This document shows, piece by piece, positions 17,606 to 29,219 of a stretch of 64,000 nt of DNA (positions are counted from its first letter, which is position 1; each line of letters starts with the position of its first letter). The DNA is from Anaerosolibacter sp. (GTDB lineage: Bacteria > Bacillota > Clostridia > Peptostreptococcales > Thermotaleaceae). Where the stretch lies: the NCBI RefSeq assembly GCF_029240175.1, contig NZ_JARBTM010000004.1:62001-126000 (forward strand), given 5' to 3'. Both the position numbers and the translations under genes were made by a program. The notes below the pieces were generated by a model, which saw nothing but the letters and a program-made list of their open reading frames with translations, did not search any database and was not told the origin of the DNA.

Positions 17606-18373
17606 ATGGCAAGAAATCGAAATCCTAATAGAGAAAAAGCATTTAAAATATACAGAGAGCATCAAGGTAAAATAACAACCAAAGAATTAGCACGACTACT
17701 TGATGAGAAAGAGAAAAACGTTGAGTATTGGAGAAATGCAGATGATTGGAAGAGAAAATACAATCCAAAAGGTGGGGCTCCGTTAGGTAATAAAAATGCT
17801 ACTGGAGCTCCAGAAGCAAATCAATACGCAAGAAAGCATGGATGGTATTCAAAATATCTTCCAACAGAGGTGAGAAATCTAGTCAAAGAGGCAGAGGAAG
17901 CTGGAGGGTCGCCGTTAGACATCCAATGGGCAATGATTATGACCAAATGGATCAATATACTTAGGTCTCAGAAAATCATGTATGTTAAAGATGAACATGA
18001 TAAATCAAAAGAGCTTAAGAAATTTAAAAGCCAACAAGATCTAAAAGGCCCAAAAGATGCAAAGATGCTTGTTGAAACATATAGGGAAGAAGAATATGAG
18101 ATTCAGCAAGCATGGGATAGACAAGCAAACCTGCTAAATTCCCAATCCAGAGCAATGGCTACATTATCCAGGTTGATTAAAGACTATAATGAAATGCTTC
18201 ATGCTAATTGGGATACAGCTACTGAGGAACAAAAGCTGAGAGTTGAAAGATTGAGGATGCAAATTCAGAATCCAGAGCTGCAGCATAGGAAAGAGCTTAG
18301 CGAGAAAAAGCTTGAACTTGAAAGAGAACGGTTCGAGCATACCAAGGAAATGGATAAGACAAAGATGTGGTAA
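17606..18373 (+). CDS. terS: phage terminase small subunit
   Basis: 255 residues. AGGAGG lies 6 bases before the ATG. The N-terminus (about 1-60) is a helix-turn-helix for DNA recognition (KITTKELARLLDEKEKNVEYWRN), followed by the GGAPLGNKNATG linker and KHGWYSKYLP, common in clostridial small terminases. The rest is helical, ending in a Glu/Lys-rich coil (EKKLELERERFEHTKEM). The protein selects phage DNA and passes it to the large subunit. No large subunit follows, so it cannot package alone; it could act with a helper phage or be left over after a deletion. Confidence 0.8.
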   Translation: MARNRNPNREKAFKIYREHQGKITTKELARLLDEKEKNVEYWRNADDWKRKYNPKGGAPLGNKNATGAPEANQYARKHGWYSKYLPTEVRNLVKEAEEAGGSPLDIQWAMIMTKWINILRSQKIMYVKDEHDKSKELKKFKSQQDLKGPKDAKMLVETYREEEYEIQQAWDRQANLLNSQSRAMATLSRLIKDYNEMLHANWDTATEEQKLRVERLRMQIQNPELQHRKELSEKKLELERERFEHTKEMDKTKMW

Positions 18374-18764
18374 AGCATACAGGGAACAAATGATGCAAGT
18401 ATGTAAAGATTTAAAAGGAAGACATATTGGGGAGTGGTTTTAAGTGAATCATGGATAAGTTCCACTCCCCCCCCACCCTGGCGAAAAAAATACGAATTCA
18501 AAAGACCGGAGGGTATCCCTAATTTTCACACACACTAAAAAAATGACTTTTTCCTTGAAAACTTTTGAAAAAAGTTGAAAATGGATGATAATATTCGAAA
18601 ATAGGTGAGAACTCAAGCTATTTGAGTCGATGAAAGGCGCATGACCAAATAAATTGAACCAATGTTCAAGATCAATATTGGAGCTGAACGGCTTATGAAG
18701 ATAGGGAGACTAACAGCTAAGAAGTACCTATAGAACTACTAACCAAAGATTAGAATGTAGGTGA
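18374..18764. other. gene-free stretch after terS
   Basis: This is where an HNH gene and the terminase large subunit usually lie, but no frame longer than about 30 codons has a start signal and none has terminase motifs. The cos-like repeat is inside it. The rest looks like unselected phage DNA. Confidence 0.5.
18429..18470. other. cos-like hairpin region
   Basis: GGGGAGTGG (18429-18437) and CCACTCCCC (18462-18470) are perfect 9-bp inverted repeats with a 24-base gap, followed by a run of C and then CCCACCCTGGCG. GC-rich palindromic stretches right after terS are typical of cos sites in Firmicutes phages. The cleavage position cannot be read from sequence. It lies in a gene-free part of an otherwise AT-rich region. 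Confidence 0.4.
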
Positions 18765-18941
18765 TATGGGAATAGCCCTGGCGAACTGAAATATCATATG
18801 GTAGTTGAAAGAATCTATGAATTACTACCATGGATTCCAAGACTGTAGTATAGCAAGAACCAAATTGATCATATAATTGATGAAGTAGTTGAATGTTTTC
18901 AACGATATTTTTCCGATGAGGAAGAATTTGCTAGGACATAG
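18765..18941 (+). pseudogene. broken small phage gene
   Basis: One frame reads GNSPGELKYHMVVERIYELL then WIPRL, a TAG at 18846-18848, and continues YSKNQIDHIIDEVVECFQRY to the TAG at 18939-18941. The two halves look like one helical protein of about 58 residues. The ATG at 18766 is one base out of frame, so a single-base loss next to the start and a nonsense change both appear to have hit the gene. No family assigned. Confidence 0.6.
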
Positions 18942-19826
18942 TGAAGATGCTGGGGCATGCATAATGCTCTGGCTTTTTTTATTTTGCACAGAAATCTAGG
19001 TAGAAGAAATCCTCTACAGAATAATGAGTATGCGTAGTGAAATTTCACATATTGCAGAGCAGGGTTCTCACTTGTAAACATTTTGTTAATGAATTTCTGA
19101 TGGTTCTATTCACATAGATGTTAAAAGATTAATAATAGAACCCTATAAATATAATACCAGAGATTAAACGCAAAGATAATTATAAAAATAGCCTTTGCAT
19201 TTTATGGTCCAACTGCACTTGAAGACGATGAATTTCTACAGGCTATTTAAGAAGATAGACATGAAATTCGGAAATTGTTTTCATCTAAAAAAGCAATGTA
19301 ACAAAAACAAAGAACATTACATTCAGGTGGCGTTTTCTGATGATATATAAAGAAGAGAAAATTCTATTTGAATGTAATAGAATACCACATATATTACATT
19401 GAGAGAGGGCAAAAAACAAAAGGTACTTTGGGAGGTCCATGAACGCTGCGGGTCTAGCGAAGCCCAAGGTTCCGCTAGATACAAAAAAATTTTCATTGCC
19501 CTTTCCGTTTCCAAAACCTAAGGCATAAAGGAGACAATTTCGAAAGGCATTAGAAGTAAAATTTTTAATCAACTAAATACAAACTTAATCTAAATCTATT
19601 TTCTACGACAAAACGATAGGTTGCCATCAACCCTATTACATCGTATTAGCTTTAATGTATCTTTGAAATTTAAATAATTTTTAAAAGGATTTTGAAGGAA
19701 ATTGGAATCTGTCAAGAAATTGGTGTAAACATTCTGAAGTTCATATATATGATTAAGAACGAGGGGGGATTAGAATCTCCCCTCGAAATGTATGCTTAAC
19801 TGGCCAATATCGACGATAAGGGGACT
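18942..19826. other. non-coding debris at the presumed deletion
   Basis: No supported gene. Minus-strand frames near 18899-19081 and 19285-19572 have no ribosome binding sites and low-complexity composition. A GC-richer island at about 19420-19470 stands out from the AT-rich surroundings and may be part of a former packaging or structural gene. CGAGGGG and CCCCTCG near 19759-19785 form an imperfect hairpin just before the truncated amidase. Capsid and tail genes would normally lie across this point. Confidence 0.45.
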
Positions 19827-20219
19827 ATGACAGAGGCTACATATAATACTTTGGTGCACCGCTGTGCAGACCTCAGTAAAGAATGGGATCTTGATCCAAA
19901 GCCATTGGGCGATCTATGGCTGCACCAGGAAGTAGTAGGATGGAAGGATTGTCATCGATGGTTTGTACAGAATCCTTTGAGTTGGCATAAATTCCAGGAA
20001 GAAGTCTTTGAAGTGATGAAAGGGGGAAATATATTGGGTAAAGTATTTAGAGATGTAGCTGATGATCGTTGGTCAGCAAAGGATATAGAAAAAGCAAAGG
20101 CACTTGGTCTAATTGCTGGAGATTCAAATGGTAATTTCAATCCTACGGGGCAACTAACTAGGGAGCAGGCGGCAGTTATTATGGTAAGGCTATATGAAGT
20201 CATTAAGGAGGGAAAATAA
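19827..20219 (+). pseudogene. 5'-truncated N-acetylmuramoyl-L-alanine amidase with SLH domain
   Basis: Endolysins of this kind cut the bond between N-acetylmuramic acid and L-alanine in peptidoglycan. Only the C-terminal half of an amidase_2-like domain remains (residues 1-65, with LGDLWLHQEVVGWKDCHRWF and NPLSWHKFQEEV), followed by an SLH domain (about 72-125, FRDVADDRWSAKDIEKAKAL, then QLTREQAAVIMVRLYEV) for cell-wall anchoring. The N-terminal zinc-ligand half is missing, and the frame upstream of ATG 19827 reads on for a few plausible residues before a stop. A weak AAGGGG could start translation, but the product would be inactive. It marks the right side of the deletion and touches the holin gene. 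Confidence 0.7.
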
Positions 20220-20462
20220 ATGACAAAAATTGATTGGATGAGGAAATTAAGCTCACGGAAGTTCTGGAGTTTACTTATGGCGCTTATTGCTGCCGGTTTG
20301 GTGTTGGTGAAAGTAGAGGCAACTGTAATTTCCCAAGTATCCGCAGTTATCGGTGCATTTTCTTCGGTTGTTATATATATTCTAGCTGAAGCCAATGTAG
20401 ATGGAAAAAGAGTTGAAACACCGAAAGTTGAGCTTATTGATAATGATGATACCAGAGCCTAG
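20220..20462 (+). CDS. phage holin-like protein
   Basis: 80 residues. WMRKLSSRKFWSLLMALIAA opens the first membrane segment (about 14-33), and a second runs about 37-57 (VISQVSAVIGAFSSVVIYIL), followed by a charged tail. This is the layout of a common clostridial holin group that follows the amidase gene. Holins form membrane lesions that release or activate the endolysin. It starts right after the amidase stop, with GGAGGG as ribosome binding site, so translation is coupled. The gene looks intact although its partner is not. Confidence 0.65.
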   Translation: MTKIDWMRKLSSRKFWSLLMALIAAGLVLVKVEATVISQVSAVIGAFSSVVIYILAEANVDGKRVETPKVELIDNDDTRA

Positions 20463-22833: not shown

Positions 22834-22877
22834 AAATATGATACAGGGCAGAATCTCTTCTGCCCTGTATCATATTT
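22834..22877. terminator. perfect 20-bp inverted repeat, likely bidirectional terminator
   Basis: Bases 22834-22853 pair perfectly with 22858-22877 around a TCTC loop; the core is ATACAGGGCAGAA. The AT-rich ends give A-runs and T-runs on both sides, so it could end transcription both ways. It separates the coiled-coil gene from the secreted metallo-beta-lactamase gene. Confidence 0.75.
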
Positions 22878-22949: not shown

Positions 22950-24485
22950 ATGAGAAGAGGGTTATCGTTGTTATTAACTATAATGTTGCTATTATGCATG
23001 CCTGTGATGATAGTAGCTCAGGAGGACACTAGAGTTACTGTGGATGGAAAGCTGCTAAGTTTTGATGTAGCACCCGCATTGGTTCAAGGGAGAACGCTGG
23101 TACCTTTACGAACTATATTTGAATCTCTTGGAGCAAAGATAGAATGGGACGGTGTCACAAAAACCGTTACAGGAACCAAGGGTGACACAAAGGTGATACT
23201 GACTGTTGATAAGAAAACAGCAACAGTGAATGGAAAGACTGTTGAACTTGAGGTGCCAGGAACTATTATCGATAATAGAACTCTAGTGCCAGCACGGTTT
23301 ATAGCTGAAGCTTTAGGAGCAAATGTTGTTTGGGATGCAGGGACAAGAACAGCACGAATTACAAGTGCTACAGAACTAAAAGTGCATTTTATTGATGTAG
23401 GGCAGGCAGATGCAATTTTTATCGACTTCGGGAACTATGATATTTTAATAGATGGTGGTAACAATGAGGATGGGCAGCTAGTCGTAGATTATCTAAAGAA
23501 GTTGAAAACTGATGATATAGAGATTCTAATTGCTACACATCCTCATGAAGATCATATTGGTGGGCTTGATGATGTAATAAAGGCATATAAAGTTAAGACA
23601 ATAGTAGATAGTGGATATGTACATTCATCTAAGACATATGAGGATTATCTGGATGCTGCATTGGAAGAAAAGGAAAATGGAGCAGAGGTTCTTAAAGACA
23701 CCGACATGTCCTTTGAACTTGGTGGTGGAGCAAAATTCGATGTAATTGAAACTGGAGATGACTTTGGAGACAACATTAATAATTATTCTGTGCTTACTAA
23801 GCTTACATACAAAGATGTAAAGTTCTTATTTACTGGCGATATGGAGAAAGATGTTGAATCAAAAATATTAAATAAAGATATCCAAGCGGATATTTTGAAA
23901 GTTGGGCATCATGGATCAAGCACCTCATCAGGAAGAGAATTTTTAGATAAGGTGGGCGCTAAAATAGCCGTTATAAGTGCCGGGCAAGATAATGAATACG
24001 GACATCCACACCTAGAAACATTAGTAGCAATAGGTAGATCTGGGGGTAATATCTATAGTACTACGAAAGGCGGTCCTGTGGTTATTACCACCAATGGAGT
24101 GGACTATCAGGTTCAAGCAGGACAAGAACAGGTTGAAGTAATAGAGCAGAATTTGCCGGGACAGACAACAAGCCCAAATATTAACGCAGGCGGATCCGGT
24201 GTAATAATTAAGGTTATAGATCTTAAAAATGAGACTGTGATTATTGAAAATACATCAGATAAAGATGTTGATATGACAGGATGGAAGTTAGTTTCTGTAG
24301 AGGGAAATCAGACTTATAATTTTCCGGATGGATTTGTTCTAAAAGCTAAGAAAACAGTGAAAATAGCTAGCGGTGGAGGTACTTCTGAACTTAATTGGAC
24401 AAAAGCAAATATATGGAACAATAGTGGTGATCCAGGAGAACTCTATAATAGCAATGGTGACTTAGTATCTAAGTATCCTAGGTAA
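22950..24485 (+). CDS. secreted ComEC-like metallo-beta-lactamase protein with stalk and lamin-tail domains
   Basis: 511 residues. A signal peptide (1-24) is followed by a copper-amine-oxidase N-terminal-like stalk repeat (about 28-138, with GRTLVPLRTIFESLGAKIEW and NRTLVPARFIAEALGANVVW). The metallo-beta-lactamase domain (144-390) carries FIDVGQADA, the metal motif THPHEDHIGG (His197, His199, Asp201, His202), FTGDME (Asp297) and VGHHGSS (His320), the pattern of the ComEC/Rec2 C-terminal domain, thought to be nucleolytic. A lamin-tail domain (about 415-505) ends the protein. It should act outside the cell, perhaps on DNA or nucleotides. Start ATG has AGGGGGAAG upstream. Confidence 0.85.
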   Translation: MRRGLSLLLTIMLLLCMPVMIVAQEDTRVTVDGKLLSFDVAPALVQGRTLVPLRTIFESLGAKIEWDGVTKTVTGTKGDTKVILTVDKKTATVNGKTVELEVPGTIIDNRTLVPARFIAEALGANVVWDAGTRTARITSATELKVHFIDVGQADAIFIDFGNYDILIDGGNNEDGQLVVDYLKKLKTDDIEILIATHPHEDHIGGLDDVIKAYKVKTIVDSGYVHSSKTYEDYLDAALEEKENGAEVLKDTDMSFELGGGAKFDVIETGDDFGDNINNYSVLTKLTYKDVKFLFTGDMEKDVESKILNKDIQADILKVGHHGSSTSSGREFLDKVGAKIAVISAGQDNEYGHPHLETLVAIGRSGGNIYSTTKGGPVVITTNGVDYQVQAGQEQVEVIEQNLPGQTTSPNINAGGSGVIIKVIDLKNETVIIENTSDKDVDMTGWKLVSVEGNQTYNFPDGFVLKAKKTVKIASGGGTSELNWTKANIWNNSGDPGELYNSNGDLVSKYPR

Positions 24486-25023: not shown

Positions 25024-25539
25024 CTATTTGGCTGTATAATCGAGTGCTTTATACACTGCTTCTAAGGTAGGCCCGTTGCAACATTTAATTCTTCCATCTT
25101 CATAATCTTTAATGGTTGACTGATGGAGATTACAAAGTTTTGCGAGTTCGTGCTGACTTAAACCTTTCAATAGTCTAAATTTTTTTATTATCTGACTAGG
25201 CGTATCTTCGGGCCAGTTATCTATTTGCAACAAATATTTAATTGATACGTCAAATACTTCAGATAGCTTTTTTACAGTACTAATATTTGGATAAGTAAGT
25301 CCCGACTCGATATTTTTAACCGTAAAGGGGGAAATATTACAGAGTTTAGCCAACTCTTTCATATTTAATTTCATATTTTTCCTGCATTTTAACACTCTTT
25401 GTCCAAGGGTTTCTTCAGGTAGCTCTTGGATTAAATTTTCGTCTATGTTCCATGTAAAAGTTATTGTTTTGTGCTTTGTTCCTGCATGCTTGTCCTTGTG
25501 GCTATTATGGTGATAGTACCCATCAATGCACTTGTTCAC
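25024..25539 (-). CDS. double XRE-type regulator whose frame starts in host comM
   Basis: 171 residues. Two XRE helix-turn-helix domains: about 47-103 (LGQRVLKCRKNMKLNMKELA, then NISPFTVKNIESG) and about 112-168 (IIKKFRLLKGLSQHELAKLC, then HQSTIKDYEDG). The only standard start codon before the first HTH helix is GTG 25539, and the first 16 codons are antisense to the comM remnant. A stop lies 4 codons further upstream. So the annotated N-terminus exists only when the element is integrated; in a circular form another sequence would precede it. GAGGCG near the GTG is a poor ribosome binding site. Regulatory target unknown; near the element end, control of excision is possible. Confidence 0.6.
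   Translation of the reverse strand: MNKCIDGYYHHNSHKDKHAGTKHKTITFTWNIDENLIQELPEETLGQRVLKCRKNMKLNMKELAKLCNISPFTVKNIESGLTYPNISTVKKLSEVFDVSIKYLLQIDNWPEDTPSQIIKKFRLLKGLSQHELAKLCNLHQSTIKDYEDGRIKCCNGPTLEAVYKALDYTAK
25485..25495. other. right attachment junction (attR) of the element
   Basis: The comM reading frame matches the conserved CPCGYYGD block from about 25491 rightwards, but residues before it (FCALFLHA) do not match the expected ASMNP. The crossover must lie at or within a few bases of 25488-25491, in the bases GCTTGTCCTTG. The left partner, attL, and the 5' part of comM are not in this window. Confidence 0.75.
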
Positions 25540-25973
25540 CGCCTCAGATCAAAAAATACCTATCAAAGATATCAGGGCCCCTTTTAGACCGAATAGATAT
25601 GCACATTGAAGTATTTCCAGTCCAATGTAGTGAGTTACAGGCTGAACAGGGATCAAAGAGTAGTTTAGAGTTAAAACAGAATGTGAATGCAGCTCGGATG
25701 ATACAACTTCAGCGATATGAAAAAGAAGGTATCCTTTTTAATTCTCAGTTGAAGCCTAAATTAATGAAGAAATATTGTAAAATAGGGAATGCGGAGAAAG
25801 AACTTTTAGAAACAGCATTTAATAAGCTTGGTCTTAGCGCAAGGGCATATAACAGGATTATCAAACTAAGCAGAACAATTGCGGATTTAAATGGTTGTGA
25901 GAGAATACAGGTTTCCCATATTGCAGAGGCAATACAGTATAGGAACTTGGACAGAAAATTTTGGAATCCATAG
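25491..25973 (+). pseudogene. comM: 3' fragment of comM/yifB (Mg-chelatase-like AAA ATPase)
   Basis: About 160 residues remain: CPCGYYGDSTHQCTCSPPQI, then YLSKISGPLLDRIDMHIEV, and the C-terminal helical part (LGLSARAYNRIIKLSRTIADL). This is the C-terminal third of the ComM/YifB family, AAA+ helicases that help branch migration during natural transformation. The N-terminal ATPase core is missing from this side because the prophage-like element has inserted in the CPCG block. The frame has no stop until 25971. A TTG at 25464 could open it, but without the Walker motifs no activity is expected. Excision would restore the gene. dprA follows 18 bases downstream. Confidence 0.9.
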
Positions 25974-25991: not shown

Positions 25992-27074
25992 ATGGAGGAA
26001 AAATACTATCTTGCTTGGTTAAATCATGTAAACGGCGTAGGGCTAAAAACTGTTGAAGCACTCATGCACCGATTCGGAGATGCTCAGAAAGTTTTCACCG
26101 CATCTGCCAGTGAATTATTAGGGGTTAAAGGAATAAATGAGAACACAACTCATAACATAATACAGAACAGAAAAAAAGAAAGTGTCGAATCGTTAAGAAT
26201 AATTATTGAAAAATTAGGTATAGATATATTATCAAGAAACGATATGGAATACCCTAGTAATCTGAAAAATATTTATGATCCACCATATCTACTCTATAAA
26301 ATTGGAAACATCTGCAGTAAGGATGAAAATGCCGTAGCGATTGTTGGTGCAAGAAAGGCAACACCCTATGGAAAATGGGCAGCTTATAAATTGGCGGGAG
26401 ATTTGGCTAAAAGAGGAATTACTATTGTCAGTGGTATGGCTTATGGCATCGATACAGCAGCACATAGAGGCGCATTAGATAGTGGAGGAAGAACAATCGC
26501 AGTATTAGGTTCTGGTGTGGATGTTTGTTATCCAAAATCAAACTATTCACTCATGAAGGAAATTGAAAAAAATGGTGCTGTAGTCTCAGAATATGCTATT
26601 GGAACTCCGCCTGCACCCAACCATTTCCCACCTCGAAATCGTATCATTAGTGGGTTGGCAAAAGGTGTTGTCGTCATTGAAGCAAATGCGAAAAGCGGGT
26701 CTTTGATAACTGTTGAATTTGCCCTAGAACAAGGTCGTGAGGTACTTGCTGTTCCAGGCAATATCAACAGTGGACTTAGTATGGGTACAAATCAGCTAAT
26801 CAAAGATGGTGCTAAAATAGTGACCTGTGTAGAAGATATTATAGAAGAGTTGGGAATCAGAGAATCAAAGACAATAGAGAGGCAAGTAACAGAACTAAGC
26901 GCTAGTGAAAATGAGATTTACAATATAATTAGAGAGTACCAGCCAATACACATGGAAATTTTATCCTTGAAAACAAAGCAAAGTATTGATAATATAAACA
27001 GTATTGTTACTATTTTGCAATTAAAAGGATTAGTAGATCTTTTACCGGGAAAAATATTGATAGTAAATAATTGA
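25992..27074 (+). CDS. dprA: DNA-processing protein DprA (Smf)
   Basis: 360 residues, full length. DprA binds incoming single-stranded DNA during transformation and loads RecA. A SAM/HhH-like N-terminus (about 1-70, WLNHVNGVGLKTVEALMHRF) precedes the Rossmann-type domain (about 75-290) with the typical AIVGARKATPYG, SGMAYGIDTAAHRGAL, GSGVDVCYP, NHFPPRNRIISGL and GSLITVEFALEQGREV motifs. A winged-helix tail (about 300-360) follows. AAGGGTGATG lies near the ATG. It is 18 bases after the comM fragment, so its transcription may depend on what is left of the comM operon. Confidence 0.95.
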   Translation: MEEKYYLAWLNHVNGVGLKTVEALMHRFGDAQKVFTASASELLGVKGINENTTHNIIQNRKKESVESLRIIIEKLGIDILSRNDMEYPSNLKNIYDPPYLLYKIGNICSKDENAVAIVGARKATPYGKWAAYKLAGDLAKRGITIVSGMAYGIDTAAHRGALDSGGRTIAVLGSGVDVCYPKSNYSLMKEIEKNGAVVSEYAIGTPPAPNHFPPRNRIISGLAKGVVVIEANAKSGSLITVEFALEQGREVLAVPGNINSGLSMGTNQLIKDGAKIVTCVEDIIEELGIRESKTIERQVTELSASENEIYNIIREYQPIHMEILSLKTKQSIDNINSIVTILQLKGLVDLLPGKILIVNN

Positions 27075-27146: not shown

Positions 27147-29219
27147 GTGGCAAAATCTTTAGTAATCGTAGAGTCGCCTGCGAAAGCAAAGACAATAGGA
27201 AAATTCTTAGGAAAAAATTATAAAATAACAGCCTCCGTTGGACATGTTAGGGATCTTCCTAAAAGTAAAATGGGTATTGATGTTGAACATGAATATGAGC
27301 CTAATTATATTACCATAAGAGGAAAAGGGCCTGTTATACAAGAATTAAAAAAAGAGGCGAAGAAAGCAAAAAAAATATTACTTGCAACAGACCCCGATAG
27401 AGAAGGAGAGGCCATATCATGGCATTTGGCCCATATTTTATCTATTGAAGATAATGAAAAATGTAGAATTGAGTTCAATGAGATTACAGAGAGTGCGATT
27501 AAAAACGCTGTAAAAAAACCTAGAAAAATAAACAAGAGTCTTGTAGATGCACAGCAGGCTAGAAGGGTACTAGATCGATTAGTTGGTTATAGTATAAGTC
27601 CTCTTCTGTGGAGAAAAGTGCGAAAGGGGCTAAGTGCAGGAAGAGTCCAATCTGTTGCAACCAAATTAATATGTGATAGAGAAAAGGAAATAAATGAGTT
27701 TATCCCTCAAGAATATTGGAGTATTTCTGCATTTCTTCAAAAAAGAAGTTCTAAAGAAGTAATAGAGGCTAAATTTTATGGATCTGATCAAGAGAAAATG
27801 GAAGTCCATTCAAAAGATGAAGTAGAAAAAATTTTGGGCAGAATAAACGAAAATGAATATGTTGTTTCCGATGTTAAGCGAAGGGAAAAGAAAAGAAATC
27901 CTTATCCACCCTTTACTACCAGCAGTTTACAGCAGGAAGCTGCAAATCGGCTGGGTTTTACCACGAAGAAAACAATGATTGTAGCGCAGCAGCTTTATGA
28001 GGGGATCGAACTTAAGGATGAAGGGTCTGTGGGATTAGTTACCTATATTAGAACAGATTCTACGAGAATATCCGATGAGGCAAAAGAAAAAGCACGGAGA
28101 TATATCATTAATAATTTCTCAGAAGAATATCTTCCTGAAGTGGATAAGCAATACAAGACGAAGAAGGAAGCGCAGGATGCTCATGAAGCTATTAGACCAA
28201 CGGATATCGAAAGAACGCCAGATCATATTAGAGAATCTTTAAGTAATGATCAGTATAAGCTCTATAAGCTGATATGGGAACGATTTGTGGCGAGCCAAAT
28301 GAAGAATGCCCTTTATGATACATATTCAGTTGATATTACAAACAATGGATATATTTTCAAGGCATCAGGTTCCAAATTAGTATTTGAGGGGTTTTTGCGT
28401 GTATATACCTATGCTACTGTTTCAGATACGGAAATTCCCGAGGTTGAAATAAATAATAAACTACTACAAGATAGAATTGAACCCAAGCAGCATTTTACTC
28501 AGCCGCCACCTCGATTTACAGAAGCTACTTTAGTAAAAGAACTGGAAGAGAAAGGAATTGGTAGACCTAGTACCTATGCCCCTATTATTACAACAATTCT
28601 TAGTCGTGGATATGTTGAAAAGGAGAGCAAAGCATTAAGGCCTACTGAACTTGGCCTTATCGTGACAGAATTGCTTGAAGAATACTTTAGCGATGTTATT
28701 GATCAACATTTCACGGCTGATCTGGAAATAAAGCTCGATGAAGTTGAAGCAGGCCAACTAGATTGGATCAGAGTCATTGATGATTTCTATAAGCCTTTTA
28801 GCCGTGTGCTAAAACATGCAGAGGAAGAAATTGAAAAGATTGAAATCGTTGAAGAAGTGACTGACGAAGTTTGTGATGTTTGTGGAAAACATATGGTTGT
28901 GAAGTATGGAAAATTCGGAAAATTTCTTGCTTGTTCGGGATATCCAGAATGTGAACATACAAGGCCGTTTGTTCATAAAATTGGGGTTCCTTGTCCTCAA
29001 TGCCAAGGGGAGATTGTAGAAAGAAGGTCGAAGAAAGGTCGATTATTTTATGGGTGTATAAATTTTCCTAAATGCAATTTTGTTACATGGAGTAAGCCAA
29101 TTCATGAAAATTGTCCAACTTGTGGAACGCTTCTTGTTGAAAAGAAAACAAAAAAAGGAACGATTATTCAATGCTCGAATAAAGAATGTAAATATAAACG
29201 GCAAGGTGAAGACGATTAG
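27147..29219 (+). CDS. topA: DNA topoisomerase I
   Basis: 690 residues. Type IA topoisomerase that relaxes negative supercoils by single-strand passage. The Toprim domain (residues 3-115) begins KSLVIVESPAKAKTIGKFLG and carries TDPDREGEAISWHL. The catalytic Tyr300 lies in LVTYIRTDSTR. The C-terminus has three four-cysteine zinc fingers (CDVCGKH...CSGYPEC, CPQCQGE...CINFPKC, CPTCGT...CSNKEC) that bind single-stranded DNA. GTG start after GGAGGTG. In most Firmicutes trmFO, xerC and hslVU follow; here they do not. Confidence 0.97.
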   Translation: MAKSLVIVESPAKAKTIGKFLGKNYKITASVGHVRDLPKSKMGIDVEHEYEPNYITIRGKGPVIQELKKEAKKAKKILLATDPDREGEAISWHLAHILSIEDNEKCRIEFNEITESAIKNAVKKPRKINKSLVDAQQARRVLDRLVGYSISPLLWRKVRKGLSAGRVQSVATKLICDREKEINEFIPQEYWSISAFLQKRSSKEVIEAKFYGSDQEKMEVHSKDEVEKILGRINENEYVVSDVKRREKKRNPYPPFTTSSLQQEAANRLGFTTKKTMIVAQQLYEGIELKDEGSVGLVTYIRTDSTRISDEAKEKARRYIINNFSEEYLPEVDKQYKTKKEAQDAHEAIRPTDIERTPDHIRESLSNDQYKLYKLIWERFVASQMKNALYDTYSVDITNNGYIFKASGSKLVFEGFLRVYTYATVSDTEIPEVEINNKLLQDRIEPKQHFTQPPPRFTEATLVKELEEKGIGRPSTYAPIITTILSRGYVEKESKALRPTELGLIVTELLEEYFSDVIDQHFTADLEIKLDEVEAGQLDWIRVIDDFYKPFSRVLKHAEEEIEKIEIVEEVTDEVCDVCGKHMVVKYGKFGKFLACSGYPECEHTRPFVHKIGVPCPQCQGEIVERRSKKGRLFYGCINFPKCNFVTWSKPIHENCPTCGTLLVEKKTKKGTIIQCSNKECKYKRQGEDD

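Follow-up and report, generated by a model that had tools for sequence, protein, structure and literature searches.

Results

An element inserted in comM

The window, that is, the whole stretch of DNA analysed here (64,000 bp of an Anaerosolibacter sp. genome), contains the right-hand part of a 51,708-bp element (G000:C9:35781-87493) inserted in comM, a gene involved in natural transformation. A serine integrase at the left end of the element and a double helix-turn-helix (HTH) open reading frame (ORF) at its right end are both read leftwards. The features of the locus are:

1-25493: right-hand part of the comM-inserted element; the left part and the serine integrase lie outside the window
25024-25539, minus strand: ORF with two HTHs, 171 aa in the integrated state when read from GTG 25539
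25475-25489: element-side arm of attP, TTTGTTCCTGCATGC
25489-25493: attR crossover core CTTGT, common to attL (L010:1782-1786)
25494-25539, minus strand: host-derived codons, antisense to comM and with GTG 25539 among them, that encode the N-terminus of the ORF in the integrated state
25489-25973, plus strand: comM 3' fragment (Mg_chelatase_C); the 5' fragment lies outside the window
25992-27074: dprA, downstream of the comM 3' part
27147-29219: topA, after dprA
L010:722-1786: comM 5' fragment, 51.7 kb upstream in the same genome
L010:1770-3446, minus strand: serine integrase at the left end of the element, outside the window

The bases to the right of 25489-25493 are comM in the sense orientation, which puts the boundary at most 5 bp from the element-host junction near 25490 proposed in an earlier reading of this DNA (hereafter the sequence-only reading). 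When the 5' and 3' parts of comM are joined at CTTGT they give a complete 514-aa ComM with the motif MNPCPCGYYGD, corresponding to attB, and an uninterrupted comM, 88% identical, is present in one genome of the same genus. The attL arm GCATGCGGGAACAAA and the attR-side arm form a 34-bp inverted repeat with 14 of the 15 arm positions paired, and joining the element ends gives a near-palindromic attP, TTTGTTCCTGCATGC-TTGT-GCATGCGGGAACAAA. The longest string shared by the two ends, TGCATGC, was also considered as the core and was rejected, because it shifts the comM frame and CTTGT restores MNPCPCGYYGD. comM is disrupted by the element, and in genome G015 it has a second insertion, near codon 220, besides that at the MNPCPC site.

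The double-HTH ORF in the integrated state

The minus-strand ORF 25024-25539 encodes two Cro/C1-type HTH domains (HTH_3) that resemble in sequence SinR and the repressors of phages and of the ICEBs1 XRE type. As the sequence-only reading had noted, no standard start codon lies between the first HTH helix and GTG 25539-25537, which is the sole one ahead of that helix; the next in-frame starts are a GTG at codon 50, within the first helix, and an ATG seven codons further. The same reading had this GTG and 16 codons antisense to the CPCGYYGD block of comM, and we likewise find that the first 15-16 codons of the ORF are host antisense sequence. AlphaFold2 gave residues 1-22, mostly host-derived, a pLDDT below 50 and the HTHs one above 90, and the host-coded N-terminus is thus predicted to be disordered. 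To judge from the sequence, the supply of GTG 25539 by the host looks incidental.

A joined integrase-HTH gene in the circle

The integrase ORF (L010:1770-3446) encodes Resolvase, Recombinase and zinc-ribbon domains (PF00239, PF07508, PF13408), in that order, and matches the phrog_95 integrase (E 2.8e-121); this domain order, the 5-bp core CTTGT and the 34-bp imperfect palindromic attP are those of a large serine recombinase. No directionality factor was identified for the element. In the prophage, the integrase ends in ...CSRMHK-GSY-stop, the last three residues and the stop being read from comM antisense, and the catalytic and DNA-binding domains remain together. When attL and attR are joined, which is how the circle of the window's clade was inferred, the integrase frame crosses attP into the HTH frame, giving 709 codons from the integrase ATG with no stop. 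Both halves of this integrase-HTH (Int-HTH) gene are intact in the window's element, and close copies of the fusion were found in none of the phage or plasmid records searched.

The joined frame reverses the central claim of the sequence-only reading, namely that the full-length regulator can be made only in the integrated state and that excision removes its N-terminus or replaces it with another: the rejoined attP puts the HTH frame in phase with the integrase ORF. That reading had named an attP that supplies the same N-terminus as the finding that would count against it, and on rejoining it is the integrase that attP supplies. Its broader idea, integration status as a switch for the regulator, survives insofar as the product of the frame changes with the state of the element, but the direction is the opposite one.

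Conservation among seven comM-inserted elements

A search of 98 related genomes gave five further relatives that cover the whole HTH part, each at a comM junction, and Clostridium sp. Cult2 was added from a scan of 84,980 species genomes. This makes seven elements in all, with Geosporobacter ferrireducens IRF9 and Maledivibacter halophilus M1 among their hosts. The HTH parts are 35-55% identical, and the other ends of the five relatives carry the comM 5' part and a homologous integrase (53-73% identical). In every one of the seven, the core that restores comM also puts the integrase and the HTH in one frame, and chance in-frame joining was rejected on this conservation. The distance from the LYF motif of the integrase to the LGQR motif of the HTH takes the values 42, 43, 44, 45 and 50 residues. 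Five linker lengths imply at least four length changes, all of them phase-keeping, for which we reckon a chance probability of about (1/3)^4. The ratio of third- to second-position substitutions is 1.81 in the linker (20 columns), 1.93 in the HTH and 2.1 in the integrase tail; since the linker is short, its third-position excess is supportive evidence only of selection on coding. On these grounds, attP very probably lies inside one Int-HTH ORF, at a domain boundary, in an anatomy that selection has conserved.

Translation and promoter signals

A strong Shine-Dalgarno sequence (AAGGGGG, AAGGAGG, AGGAGG and the like) precedes all six integrase starts that were read. The candidate starts of the HTH half have one at a usable distance in none of the seven prophages, and their positions are not conserved among these. 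In genome G013, the frame ahead of the first HTH contains no ATG, GTG or TTG back to the last stop, and in the window the minus strand between the HTH and position 26000 has no sigma-70-like site. Thus, the HTH half of the prophages looks untranslated or poorly translated and, as it has no start signals there, the HTH would seem to be properly encoded only in the free state, as the C-terminal domain of the integrase; in some prophages, a weak or host-supplied start may nonetheless give translation of the HTH half. The Int-HTH fusion itself is presumably translated.

Both states in a second integrase lineage

In the viral contigs L074-L077, a 703-aa integrase is encoded intact and ends in the same pair of HTH domains. 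In two further contigs, G766 and G767, the Int-HTH protein is in two pieces at opposite contig ends, the integrase running to residue 547-548 and the HTH from 564-591. These were called split from the contig ends, the attR flank being hidden by IMG/VR trimming, and there is a slight possibility that G766 is a circular contig that was cut at that place without overlap. The integrase tail of G767, RTARDSYWL-stop, is encoded over AGGGATTCATACTGGCTATAA; on the opposite strand this is comM sequence that codes for ...ASMNP, so this second lineage also uses comM.

The free form is seen directly in G770, a viral genome of 63,707 bp whose 115-bp identical ends make it circular. It contains an intact Int-HTH ORF of 697 codons with a Shine-Dalgarno sequence and, within that ORF, a 32-bp attP palindrome, TATTATCTACACGGACAAGGGTTCAGATAATA, the centre of which is antisense to comM MNPCPC. 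The assembler cut G770 (L115:1-115, end of L116) at attP, as expected if attP, attL and attR coexisted in the sample. Paenibacillus phage Harrison gp44 (YP_009193857), an intact Int-HTH protein of 695 aa that is 54% identical to that of L074, also belongs to this lineage. In an ungapped palindrome scan of the fused genes of the lineage and of Harrison gp44, symmetry by itself did not identify attP, which was placed by the split contigs and G770 instead. The AlphaFold2 model of the 703-aa natural fusion was poor (mean pLDDT 40) and was set aside. A tree that also included 11 HTH-less integrases places the two Int-HTH groups apart, each with full support; the architecture would therefore have been acquired twice, exchanged, or lost in other lines.

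Other genes of the element

The window's element may be defective, as genes for a large terminase, capsid or tail could not be recognised in it and it has received an IS21-type insertion (a transposase and ATP-binding helper pair at L011:2070-4225, judged from sequence). At 17606-20462, a terminase small subunit gene is followed by a stretch nearly without long ORFs and then by lysis-type genes; no large terminase, portal or capsid-sized ORF was recognised in the element, suggesting that the morphogenesis module has been deleted. Directly upstream of int lies a gene for an M78 (ImmA/IrrE-like) peptidase (L010:3467-3979); similar-looking ORFs stand beside int in G011 and G015 and, in the second lineage, two genes ahead of Int-HTH on its upstream side (L074:2706-3152). 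Adjoining the HTH, 22950-24485 encodes a protein with Cu_amine_oxidN1, metallo-beta-lactamase and Lamin Tail Domain parts, and related metallo-beta-lactamase genes at the ends of the G042 and G098 elements (L015:3-1373; L084:1-732) raise the possibility of a shared cargo. At L010:7565-11261, an HNH-type protein is followed by an 875-aa UvrD-like helicase, a pair that is possibly defence-type cargo. Between two element genes, 22834-22877 holds a perfect 20-bp inverted repeat with a 4-base loop.

Discussion

An integrase gene severed by integration

Our results point to a family of bacterial viruses and related elements in which attP lies in the middle of an Int-HTH gene, so that insertion into comM would sever the gene and excision would rejoin it. 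The comparison of genomes demonstrates the anatomy and the conserved reading frame, the existence of a free form that is intact, and the occurrence of both states in the second lineage. As we envisage the cycle, the promoter and ribosome site of the integrase would drive, from the free circle, a 709-aa Int-HTH protein; integration into comM would then cut the gene at attP. The left end of the prophage would keep the catalytic, recombinase, zinc-ribbon and coiled-coil parts, closed by a three-residue host tail and a host stop, and the HTH half would be left at the right end, preceded by host antisense sequence and lacking a proper start, until excision rejoined the two.

From this anatomy we infer that the HTH makes the activity or the direction of the integrase depend on the integration state. 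By binding element DNA, the HTH could cause int expression or the direction of the reaction to differ between the free and the integrated element: either the HTH of the free form would regulate int expression and recombination, or the prophage would be left with an HTH-less integrase that behaves differently. It is quite possible, if still short of probable, that integration in this way switches between two forms of the enzyme, one with the HTH that comes from the circle only and one without it that comes from the prophage only. ImmA-type peptidases cleave XRE repressors, and proteolytic control of the HTH by the M78 peptidase would therefore be a further possibility.

A more specific version of this two-form proposal, which we regard as somewhat more doubtful, makes the HTH a built-in directionality control: only the free Int-HTH protein would integrate well, and the HTH-less prophage integrase would be locked, or would excise only with the help of a separate directionality factor. 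The HTH follows a serine integrase that is complete in all other respects, but serine integrases without any HTH already integrate efficiently; and while the prophage always encodes the shortened integrase, the HTH that is removed could equally regulate transcription. For the archaeal integrases that split their own genes, an all-in-one design with the directionality factor built in has been described (PMC8371274), which is in keeping with this version.

It is unlikely that the HTH is a stand-alone prophage regulator that takes its start from comM and forms an integration-dependent immunity switch, as does the repressor of mycobacteriophage BPs, in whose gene attP lies (PMC4557955). The window does offer an in-frame GTG in host sequence, but the N-terminus coded from it is predicted to be disordered and no promoter-like site lies upstream; the second lineage has an internal ATG before its HTHs, where a provirus contig begins, yet the candidate starts of the seven comM elements vary in position and lack a Shine-Dalgarno sequence, and G013 has no start codon at all before the HTH. 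Moreover, the HTH frame is not lost on excision, since it is joined to int in the circle. Finally, it is highly improbable that the two frames join in phase by chance or as a relic of history, the HTH being a decaying repressor next to attP and the fusion functionless: the window's element looks defective and an in-frame join in one element alone has a sizeable chance probability, but all seven are in frame in spite of their divergence and the whole-codon length changes between them, there are no stops, there is third-position bias, and the same architecture recurs in the second lineage, where a circular genome and an isolated phage both show it.

Serine integrases are widely used as genome-engineering tools, and the control of their direction is a central question. 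An HTH that is added at each excision and removed at each integration would be a natural, ready-made directional control and, if our two-form proposal is true, the integrase would have a built-in latch on direction or expression with no need of a separate directionality gene. The finding would also bring bacterial serine recombinases into the class of self-splitting integrases, alongside the archaeal tyrosine recombinases. In addition, it exposes an annotation trap: in a prophage, the two halves lie tens of kilobases from each other and pass for an ordinary integrase and a regulator unrelated to it, the latter given a false start in host DNA by gene callers.

Comparison with known systems

Among the serine integrases, that of Listeria phage A118, which inserts in comK, is similar to the one described here in its Resolvase, Recombinase and zinc-ribbon domains, its short core, its palindromic attP and its protein-coding target; however, it has no appended HTH, and the tblastn match to it ends at query residue 534, before the attP region. 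Harrison gp44, annotated only as integrase, resembles the fusions of its lineage: the genome of this free phage encodes an intact serine integrase with a double HTH at its C-terminus. Myxophage Mx8 reportedly carries attP within its gene for a tyrosine integrase. In the literature that we searched, which included few subscription journals, neither a serine integrase with attP in its own ORF nor the splitting of an Int-HTH protein is described.

Two systems come closer. In the integration-dependent immunity of mycobacteriophage BPs and its relatives (clusters G, I, N and P), a tyrosine integrase acts at a tRNA attB, and integration trims a 33-residue C-terminal segment from the product of a separate repressor gene, giving the active repressor (PMC4557955, PMC9262239). 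As in those phages, attP lies in a regulatory ORF associated with int (here at the start of the regulator part of the joined Int-HTH ORF), integration alters the encoded protein and the state of the element would be the switch. In contrast to them, the enzyme is a serine integrase that forms a single ORF with the HTH, attP falls between the domains of that ORF and attB is in comM; furthermore, the HTH half is left without a start and, judged by translation signals only, none of the seven prophages appears to produce an active stand-alone repressor. The archaeal 'suicidal' integrases of SSV1, pTN3 and pT26-2 are tyrosine recombinases whose catalytic domain is severed by integration, and a 2021 review considered recombinases that disrupt their own gene to be exclusive to archaea (PMC8371274). 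The Int-HTH elements resemble them in that attP lies in the gene of the integrase itself, so that integration splits it and excision restores it, a partition found in all seven comM elements and in the intact and split forms of the second lineage; unlike them, the bacterial enzyme is a serine integrase that keeps all its recombinase domains together and loses only the C-terminal HTH pair. The system is thus set apart by its enzyme family, by the part that is cut off and by the fate of that part: it shares one feature with the BPs-type switch and one with the suicidal integrases, and is a member of neither.
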